DNA of 64,000 bases from Candidatus Soleaferrea massiliensis AP7. Lineage in GTDB: Bacteria > Bacillota > Clostridia > Oscillospirales > Ruminococcaceae. The translations under genes and the position numbers were made by a program. The first letter of the stretch is position 1. Each line of letters opens with the position of its first letter. This document shows positions 12,949 to 52,500 of the stretch, piece after piece. The DNA is taken from contig NZ_CCYH01000036.1 in assembly GCF_000820765.1 (NCBI RefSeq), forward strand, positions 62,001-126,000, given 5' to 3'. The notes beneath the pieces were generated by a model. The model was not told where the DNA came from. It was given only the letters and a program-made list of their open reading frames with translations, and did not search any database.

Positions 12949-13077
12949 GTCTATTTTAATATTTTTTTAGATTTACGTATCAGCTGAAGTACCGGGGTAC
13001 CATGAAAGCGACCTGTAATCATGGGAGCGTCCGCTGCTAGCTATGCCCAACCACCCAGCCAAAAGTAAAACGCCGCC

Positions 13078-13396
13078 CGCAGGCGGCCGAAGCAGGAAAA
13101 GGGATATCAGAGGGGATTTTCAAGGGGGCCATCTGGCCCTAAGCGGCACTGTGTATGGCCCCCTTGAACGGCCTTTCTTGGTTACTTTTTTGGCCGGCAA
13201 AGAAGTAACGACCATATTGCCAAGTGTTACTTGGTATACACAGCAAAGCCGCTGTGCTACAGCGGTGCAACGACCACATTACCAAGTATCACTTGGTAAA
13301 CACAGCAGAGCCGCTGTGCTACAGCGGTGCAACAACCACTCCACCAAGTATCACTTGGTAAACAGCGTAAAGCCGCTGAGACTCAGCGGCTTTACG
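13078..13396. repeat. Structured intergenic repeat, copy A
   Basis: A chain of hairpins: CAAGGGGGCCAT (13121-13132) with ATGGCCCCCTTG (13155-13166); GTTACTTTTTTG (13181-13192) with CAAAGAAGTAAC (13198-13209); CCAAGT/ACTTGG (13220-13234); CCGCTGT/ACAGCGG (13249-13265). The last two recur as a 62-bp unit starting near 13220, 13282 and 13344, ending in a long palindrome at 13367-13395. The same architecture, with compensatory base changes, occurs at 52258-52500. It lies between two minus-strand units. A reading frame across it (13043-13420) is probably not a gene. Confidence 0.85.
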
Positions 13397-13419
13397 CCGT
13401 CAGATATGCCGACAAACTG

Positions 13420-13450
13420 AAGCGGCGGTCAGAATAGCTGACCGCCGCTT
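13420..13450 (-). terminator. Hairpin after the metG-tatD-radical SAM operon
   Basis: AAGCGGCGGTCAG (13420-13432) pairs perfectly with CTGACCGCCGCTT (13438-13450), loop AATAG. It lies just beyond the radical SAM gene stop. The T-run is weak, so termination is likely but not certain. Confidence 0.6.
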
Positions 13451-52101: not shown

Positions 52102-52257
52102 AGTCTCACTCCAAACGGCAGTTTATTGTGCGAAACAAGGGAACTATTTTTACTTTAAGCTGTCCGCAGGCGGCCGACCACCTGGCGGTAGAGCAATCGC
52201 CTACAGTATTCTGCGGCCGGAGAATCATTCTGACTCAAAGCCGGCCGCAGACGGCCA

Positions 52258-52500
52258 AAGCAGATAAAAACATATCATAGGGGGATTTTCAAGGGGGGCC
52301 ATCTTGCTTTAAGCGGCACAGTGCATGGCCCCCCTTGAACGGCCTTTCTTGGTACCTTCTTTGGCCGCGCAAAGAAGGTACTGCCACTCAGCCAAGGTAT
52401 CTTGGCAAACAAAGTATGGCCGCTGCGCTGCAGCGATATAATACCCATAAAGCCAAGGACTACTTAACAAACAACGTAAACCCGCTGAGATACAGCGGTA
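52258..52500. repeat. Structured intergenic repeat, copy B
   Basis: Same hairpin chain as at 13078-13396: CAAGGGGGGCCAT (52290-52302) with ATGGCCCCCCTTG (52325-52337); GTACCTTCTTTG (52352-52363) with CAAAGAAGGTAC (52370-52381); GCCAAG/CTTGGC (52391-52406); CGCTGC/GCAGCG (52421-52435). It has one degenerate extra unit near 52452. Flanking GC-rich text at 52160-52257 (GCAGGCGGCCGA, GCAGACGGCCAAAGCAG) also recurs in copy A. It lies between the dehydratase and acyltransferase genes, both on the minus strand. Confidence 0.85.

Follow-up and report, generated by a model that had tools for sequence, protein, structure and literature searches.

The window analysed here, a stretch of 64,000 nt from Candidatus Soleaferrea massiliensis AP7, holds two copies of a hairpin-rich intergenic element (Table 1). 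Copy 1 lies between genes for a sigma-70-like factor and a radical SAM protein, and copy 2 between genes for a hexapeptide-repeat protein and a polysaccharide-biosynthesis protein, all four being encoded on the minus strand. A first-pass annotation made from the letters of the window had described a multi-hairpin element with compensatory base changes, and both copies are indeed present where it placed them (13078-13396 and 52258-52500) and can be aligned over about 270 nt. The alignment bears out the differences it had listed: GTTACTT/AAGTAAC in one copy is GTACCTT/AAGGTAC in the other, the first stem has 5 G:C pairs in one and 6 in the other, CCGCTGT/ACAGCGG is replaced by CGCTGC/GCAGCG, and GAACGGCCTTTCTTGG between the stems is invariant. 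The statement that four hairpins are shared in the same order holds for the shared stems but not for the number of hairpins, which differs, copy 2 being shorter in its tandem part. Likewise, copy 1 does occupy the stretch assigned to it, but similarity among copies starts upstream of 13078, at about 12980.

Both copies have low folding energies relative to dinucleotide shuffles (copy 1: z = -10.0, 0/100 shuffles as low; copy 2: z = -4.35, 0/200 shuffles as low). At the gathering score, no Rfam family was found in the window or in six loci from this genome. Six Rfam matches to copy 1 at E up to 1 were rejected as chance, because all are far below gathering and most belong to miRNA families. Scanning copy 1 for promoters gave none. 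An ORF of 125 aa (13043-13420) reads through copy 1 and includes PLERPFLVTFLA, a translation of the copy; a protein reading of this frame was also rejected, as it matches no Pfam or NCBIfam family, and we regard it as spurious. The first-pass annotation had mentioned small database proteins with strings of this kind. Such reading frames could give rise to spurious database proteins, and the string PLERPFLVT has no occurrence in the literature searched.

Table 1 Features of the two copies in the window; pseudoknot and third-strand assignments are predictions.
Feature	Position	Strand	Remark
Copy 1 upstream module (CAGCTGAAGTACCGGGGTACC...CGTCCGCTGCTAGCTATGCCCAACCACC)	12980..13071	+	common to subtype A copies
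Copy 1 GC hairpin GCCGCC/GGCGGC	13072..13087	+	block mean identity 0.85
Copy 1 hairpin 1	13119..13168	+	arms 13119-13132, 13155-13168; 5 vs 6 G:C pairs between copies
Copy 1 putative pseudoknot segment 1 CGGCC	13169..13173	+	would pair with 13192-13196, 5 pairs (L001)
Copy 1 candidate third strand TTTCTT (pseudoknot loop 1)	13174..13179	+	parallel to 13199-13204
Copy 1 hairpin 2 (putative pseudoknot helix 2)	13181..13209	+	arms 13181-13191, 13199-13209; one G.T pair
Copy 1 segment 3 GGCCG in hairpin 2 loop	13192-13196	+	
Copy 1 tandem array, three 62-nt units	13207..13392	+	two hairpins each
Copy 1 closing long hairpin, last tandem unit	13362..13400	+	
Copy 2 upstream module (CACCTGGCGGTAGAGCAATCGCCTAC...)	52160..52239	+	differs from copy 1; resembles L010 and others (by eye)
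Copy 2 GC hairpin GCCGGC..GACGGC	52240..52255	+	
Copy 2 hairpin 1	52288..52339	+	arms 52288-52302, 52325-52339
Copy 2 putative pseudoknot segment 1 CGGCC	52340..52344	+	would pair with 52363-52367, by pairing rule from other copies
Copy 2 candidate third strand TTTCTT	52345..52350	+	parallel to 52371-52376
Copy 2 hairpin 2 (putative helix 2)	52352..52381	+	arms 52352-52362, 52371-52381; compensated lower stem GTACC/GGTAC
Copy 2 degenerate tandem units	52382..52500	+	

Both copies are members of a dispersed, non-coding, mosaic repeat family. The two-copy element of the first-pass annotation is therefore real as to its copies but falls far short of the family's size: the core pattern GGCCYYYYYYGGNNNCYYYYYYGGCC, in which GGCC, GG, C and GGCC alone are fixed and every other position must be a pyrimidine, occurs 109 times in this genome, 57 times forward and 52 times reverse, and the same pattern read backward has no match. 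A BLAST search with copy 1 listed 42 matches, and 40 of 143 first-look candidates were scored. None of 73 distinct cores lies inside a predicted gene, according to simple codon-usage gene calls, and the 35 cores with both neighbours called comprise 12 tandem sense, 10 tandem antisense, 11 convergent and 2 divergent contexts. By parser count, one to four tandem units follow in 49 of the 54 copies with a tail of at least 250 nt. Cores were seen within about 160 nt of the end of ten contigs (C3, C8, C11, C13, C14, C15, C16, C18, C31 and C37), and for this reason the assembly was probably broken by the repeats.

Fifty aligned cores fall into subtypes A, B and C, whose hairpin 1 sequences are quite different and whose following part is the same. 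Across 36 subtype A copies, mean pairwise identity in 15-nt blocks stands at 0.98-0.99 between the 3' arm of hairpin 1 and the end of hairpin 2, drops to 0.65-0.71 across the first tandem unit and is lower than 0.6 at greater distance, with block means of 0.47-0.85 over the region of the copy 1 upstream module. Because short arrays run into unique sequence, the profile was repeated on copies with at least 1, 2 or 3 tandem units (35, 23 and 10 copies, respectively); identity among this genome's copies is 0.97-0.99 in the core, 0.72-0.75 in the first unit, 0.67-0.72 in the upstream module and 0.51-0.65 in the second unit. Uniform neutral ageing after a burst does not fit a core so much better conserved than the remaining element, and we conclude that either every copy is constrained or spread is limited to copies with an intact core. 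Viewed by eye, the A-like copy at L047 has an extra module, with hairpins of its own, seemingly inserted in the loop of hairpin 1, and judging from this locus the elements may nest.

Many copies are combined into composites. Among loci L001-L070 of this genome, 34 of 72 distinct cores belong to outward-facing pairs, and 17 of 18 distinct adjacent core pairs face outward, the other one being tandem. Eleven of these are B-A pairs with cores 583-588 nt apart, four are C-A pairs at 508-535 nt with a fifth at 698 nt, and one is an A-A pair at 1294 nt. Nine B-A composites have a common conserved spacer, and their similarity stops beyond the tandem units on both outer sides; the five C-A composites have a spacer that is unlike that of B-A and is largely different in L047. 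With respect to terminal repeats, the ends in this genome are tandem units that run into unique sequence. The C-A composite at L018 lies, to judge by eye from translations, between phosphate-binding-protein-like and phosphate-permease-like genes. Outward pairs also occur in the gammaproteobacterial genomes G542 and G157. In G542, six are 541-571 nt apart and one 392 nt, and six of its composites are long inverted repeats with the predicted pseudoknot in each arm; inspection of L134-L139 of G542 shows long inverted-repeat composites with ends similar to TTGCCTGCGGCGC..GCGCCGCAGGCAA.

The near-invariant core seems to fold as an H-type pseudoknot stabilised by a triple helix. Its segment 1, CGGCC, is complementary to the loop of the following hairpin 2, which would give an H-type pseudoknot, and TTTCTT is a candidate parallel third strand on the purine arm of hairpin 2 (T.A-T, C+.G-C): it mirrors the pyrimidine arm TTCTTT, as required of a Hoogsteen strand lying parallel on the AAAGAA purine arm. 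The invariant stretch between the stems is, as predicted from these matches, no plain linker, its CGGCC part being the pseudoknot segment and its TTTCTT part the third strand. In some copies of this genome the three tracts change jointly to TTTTCT, TCTTTT and AAAAGA. Among 100 matches listed, the first state accounts for 71 and the second for 27, the other 2 having a TTTTTT pyrimidine arm; in these two (L001 and L019) the purine arm is still AAAGAA despite TTTTTT, so that the triple is kept and one pair becomes G.T. We also considered that the third strand might pair antiparallel with the purine arm (TTCTT/AAGAA) but rejected this by reasoning, since second-state copies keep the triple and lose this pairing. 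As two states in one genome could reflect a single event, other genomes were examined.

Further copies in related genomes were the test that the first-pass annotation had set for itself, and its outcome was negative: the patterns used gave no match in 60 relatives or in the order's 393 other genomes (169 genera, counting this genome's own). Viral contigs gave no core matches, plasmids and phages no match to copy 1, and plasmids no match to an element of the gammaproteobacterial genome G183. A stricter pattern, applied to a collection of genome contigs, returned only 11 stretches, in Bacteroidota, Gilvimarinus, Thiomicrorhabdus and Pseudoxanthomonas, and all 12 matches in them are mirrors, six of which are all-T and thus uninformative and six of which show three new states. 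In the class of a Gilvimarinus, 4 of 274 genomes match, with 20 matches (19 are mirrors and one deviates at a single base; six are all-T). An eight-base version matches 33 of 79 genomes in the family of the Pseudoxanthomonas MAG, with up to 96 copies per genome against one match over all genomes for the backward control, and 2 of 198 genomes match in a Bacteroidota sample, both already in the set. The named carriers of the core elsewhere are Bacteroidota and Gammaproteobacteria. In G157 and G183 the cores are embedded in conserved multi-hairpin elements; by eye, subtype C and G157 both have AATGCCCGCTATGG and GAGGCTAG.

The covariation argument rests on these other bacteria because in this genome helix 1 is nearly constant and only two main states of the third strand occur. 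Distant elements were compared as structural look-alikes, with no assumption of common descent with those of this genome. Hairpins were extracted with no demand on the bases 5' of GG, and the loci collected yielded 156. Nine of these are palindromic hairpins read from the opposite strand, and in each a perfect third strand is present on the proper one. In the 147 correctly oriented hairpins (50 own and 97 distant), the third strand matches at 6/6 positions in 141, 5/6 in five and 4/6 in one, spanning nine informative purine-arm sequences, and shifting its window by 1-6 nt reduces the mean over all 156 hairpins from 5.64 of 6 to 1.6-3.3. T/C content is partly built in, the loci having been found with pyrimidine-seeking patterns, but the order of the bases is not, because no mirror was required.

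An ungapped alignment took in 43 of 59 sequences (38 Xanthomonadaceae-type and 5 from G183); extraction permitted one non-Watson-Crick pair, which two of the 16 dropped sequences have (L113 and L140). Four variable triples change on both sides, with 170 of 172 cells T.A or C.G, one T.G and one other, and their covariation score of 0.798 (0.404 when shuffled) is reached by 0/500 shuffles and falls to at most 0.351 when the partner is slid by 1-3 columns. All five pairs of the pseudoknot helix vary on both sides (score 0.578 vs 0.157 shuffled, 0/500), and 87.9% of cells pair vs 62.6% shuffled (0/500). Measures that count only pairs or pair types stay within the shuffles (helix 1: 63/500 and 170/500; triples: 226/500 and 500/500), and none of these shuffle counts is a probability, given that the 43 sequences are related. 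Over 72 distinct combinations, the pseudoknot helix has a mean of 4.58 pairs vs 3.21 in within-clade shuffles (largest of 200: 3.58), and over 43 Xanthomonadaceae-type combinations 4.84 vs 2.74 (largest of 500: 3.35); seven of the 72 reach only 0-2 helix 1 pairs, including all of G157 and G313. Covariation in distant bacteria supports the predicted pseudoknot helix and third strand, and is also what supports the segment 1 pairing and third strand proposed for copy 1. Selection on structure, which the first-pass annotation had suggested, is strongly supported by the third-strand matches and the covariation, and more specifically as a pseudoknot with a third strand.

Could the structure act at the DNA level? 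The copies might be intrastrand triplex repeats, H-DNA-like, that stall replication or promote rearrangement, a role proposed for an E. coli triplex motif (PMC4666352). Their strand order (Hoogsteen, pyrimidine, purine) is that of class IV in Holder et al. 2015 (PMC4666352), and they are intergenic and present in many copies; the opposite strand could, in addition, form a purine-motif triplex of the same symmetry. However, a bare triplex would not account for the pseudoknot helix and the compensated lower stem, H-DNA would need neither hairpin 1 nor the tandem units, and the pseudoknot helix itself speaks against a pure DNA triplex. Helix 2 has no wobble in the eight pairs under the third strand in the 43 sequences, and the second pair of its lower stem, outside the third strand, is U.G in 23 of 43. 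Tallied by strand, hairpin 2 has 48 G.T vs 1 A.C, but 45 of the G.T fall at one position, and the tandem units have 38 G.T vs 22 A.C in our own tally. The U.G pairs speak for RNA, weakly, and we consider an action as DNA triplexes improbable.

The suggestion in the first-pass annotation that the element might represent mobile-element ends stands as far as dispersal is concerned, on the strength of copy number and of core-less presumed orthologous sites in relatives of a gammaproteobacterial carrier, but no defined ends, target duplication or enzyme were found. For six G542 composites, the flanks were joined and searched against 40 genomes (G542 included). At least four of the six sites gave across-join matches at 68-78% identity, in at least five genomes for one site, at least two each for two and at least one for another, and two sites had no across-join match among the matches listed. 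None of 15 examined stretches holds a core (10 contiguous across-join matches, and 5 in which some distance separates the flanks). The core being missing at presumed orthologous sites implies site-by-site insertion or loss in the G542 lineage. At the one G542 site that was aligned, the junction aligns too poorly to name ends or a target duplication.

A known RNA motif adjoins the pseudoknot in some gammaproteobacteria. TwoAYGGAY (RF01731), which PMC2864571 lists for human gut, gammaproteobacteria and Clostridiales, has a gathering score of 43 bits; it has no match in the window, and matches at or above gathering were in other genomes only. In the gammaproteobacterium G157 it lies directly 5' of the pseudoknot and on the same strand at 7/7 loci (L082, L086, L088, L090, L092, L094 and L096), at or above gathering in six; a further, divergent TwoAYGGAY accompanies it at four of the seven, scoring below gathering at one. 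In Gilvimarinus, the motif lies directly upstream at L077, with a score below threshold, and some 400 nt upstream at L080, where the score just exceeds threshold, and at L079 it does not adjoin the known core; it is also directly upstream, below threshold, at the Xanthomonadaceae-type locus L107. At gathering it had no match in the 20 of 30 Xanthomonadaceae-type loci that were searched, at E up to 0.1 it is absent from 13 loci (12 Xanthomonadaceae-type and L085), and at E up to 1 from L002 and L018 of this genome and from L083, L110 and L134. The orphan TwoAYGGAY motif may be the 5' half of a pseudoknot-type element. A radC RNA (RF01754) was seen just above gathering near a core (L116:398-552).

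GGA loops bind CsrA. By eye, many upstream hairpins of the Xanthomonadaceae-type loci L104-L133 have ATGGATG, ACGGAT or AGGATG loops, which we take to resemble CsrA/RsmA sites, and the elements of our genome have no GGA loops. A csrA gene was found in 6/6 gammaproteobacterial genomes tested and not in this genome, so that csrA presence parallels GGA loops in the elements, although with few, related genomes this is only a lead. The parallel would be expected if the copies were regulatory or protein-sponge RNAs, that is, sRNA or UTR modules with a host role such as CsrA titration in gammaproteobacteria, which would also agree with the same-strand TwoAYGGAY at the seven G157 loci and with a core conserved above the remainder of the element. 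A host role of this kind is harder to reconcile with the patchy distribution, the presumed orthologous sites that lack the core, the mixed orientation to neighbouring genes and the 13 loci with no TwoAYGGAY at E up to 0.1, and we regard it as unlikely.

Movement on single-stranded DNA by a Y1 (RAYT, TnpA-REP) transposase, as for REP/REPIN-type elements, would suit repeats that are hairpin-rich, intergenic, present in about 100 copies and arranged in inverted pairs, the last being a REPIN feature. A search for the Y1 transposase (PF01797) found none in this genome (0/5 candidates), against a control that was positive in 5/14 known genomes. For this genome we therefore consider the REP/REPIN explanation very unlikely and largely refuted, barring loss of the enzyme or its location in sequence missing from the assembly, which is 98.9% complete. 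That the copies serve as transcription terminators or mRNA-end stabilisers is scarcely credible, for strong hairpins, four terminator-like sites on the copy 1 minus strand (0.9 expected) and few divergent contexts (2/35 classifiable) have to be set against 0/4 terminator-like sites on the element's own strand and a mixed orientation (12 tandem sense, 10 tandem antisense and 11 convergent).

This genome carries about 100 intergenic copies whose core is better conserved than the remainder and whose adjacent cores mostly face outward. Our best reading, to which we assign a probability of roughly 0.6, is that these are non-autonomous, MITE-like elements acting as a folded single strand, probably RNA. 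Each would consist of a hairpin, then an H-type pseudoknot, then tandem two-hairpin units; segment 1 CGGCC would pair with the hairpin 2 loop, and the pyrimidine run would be the third strand of a triple helix, lying in the hairpin 2 major groove in parallel orientation (U.A-U, C+.G-C). We infer that the elements spread as non-autonomous, MITE-like units, which some enzyme would move. The folded strand would act most likely as RNA in read-through transcripts, in which the triple-helix knot might protect the 3' side or be a docking site for a protein. Outward-facing pairs would then provide a correctly oriented copy whichever neighbour's transcript reads through. More broadly, and at odds that we place slightly below even, the elements could belong to one superfamily of dispersed RNA elements that spans Bacteroidota, Gammaproteobacteria and the lineage of the window, with a telomerase-like pseudoknot whose U.A-U triple helix is selected in every copy, up to about 100 copies per genome, exchangeable upstream hairpins (CsrA-type GGA loops where csrA exists and others elsewhere), and TwoAYGGAY as the 5' half in some gammaproteobacteria.

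To our knowledge, triple-helix pseudoknots are known from few RNAs only. A repeat family with an intact triple-helix pseudoknot in about 100 places per genome would be a natural test bed for the triples that are tolerated, with base-triple covariation readable from sequence. It would also help to address why structured intergenic repeats form large populations in some bacteria, and it suggests what the orphan TwoAYGGAY motif belongs to.

Intrastrand triplex repeats are already known: those of bacteria (ITxF; TMeco; PIT elements) were described by Holder et al. 2015 (PMC4666352), and, like the elements here, they are multi-copy intergenic repeats with one triplex-capable strand. The class IV arrangement of Hoogsteen, pyrimidine and purine tracts in order on one strand, with a stem of at least 6, is found here. 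However, the search of Holder et al. allows loops of 1-6 nt, and loop 2 here has 7-9 nt (51 own hairpins); our motif is a T-rich pyrimidine motif, in contrast to their G/C-rich class II motif; and the third strand here would be loop 1 of a pseudoknot, unlike in their motifs (PMC4666352). A text search of that paper gave no mention of Clostridi- or Firmicutes. Sequence, pseudoknot and loop sizes set the present elements apart. The literature searched, which took in few subscription papers, contained no description of this element.

Telomerase RNA and SAM-II contain H-type pseudoknots with a major-groove triple helix. The proposed fold resembles them in having a loop 1 of pyrimidines that runs parallel to the helix 2 purine strand and a helix 1 formed from the hairpin 2 loop; pairing of the hairpin loop with an upstream segment is indicated by covariation in 43 gammaproteobacterial sequences, and base triples between loop 1 and helix 2 are predicted purely from covariation. 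It differs in being a dispersed repeat of about 100 copies, and the likeness is one of plan at most, with no homology claimed. TwoAYGGAY is linked to the pseudoknot by its position directly upstream on the same strand in G157, but is without a match in the window or, at E up to 1, in L002 and L018. BOX of pneumococcus has tandem middle units, as do the present elements. With REP/BIME/REPIN elements and MITEs (in part after PMC2718517) they share a dispersed, intergenic, palindromic and modular nature and inverted pairs, and they differ in that no Y1 transposase was found, in the larger size of the element and in its pseudoknot core.
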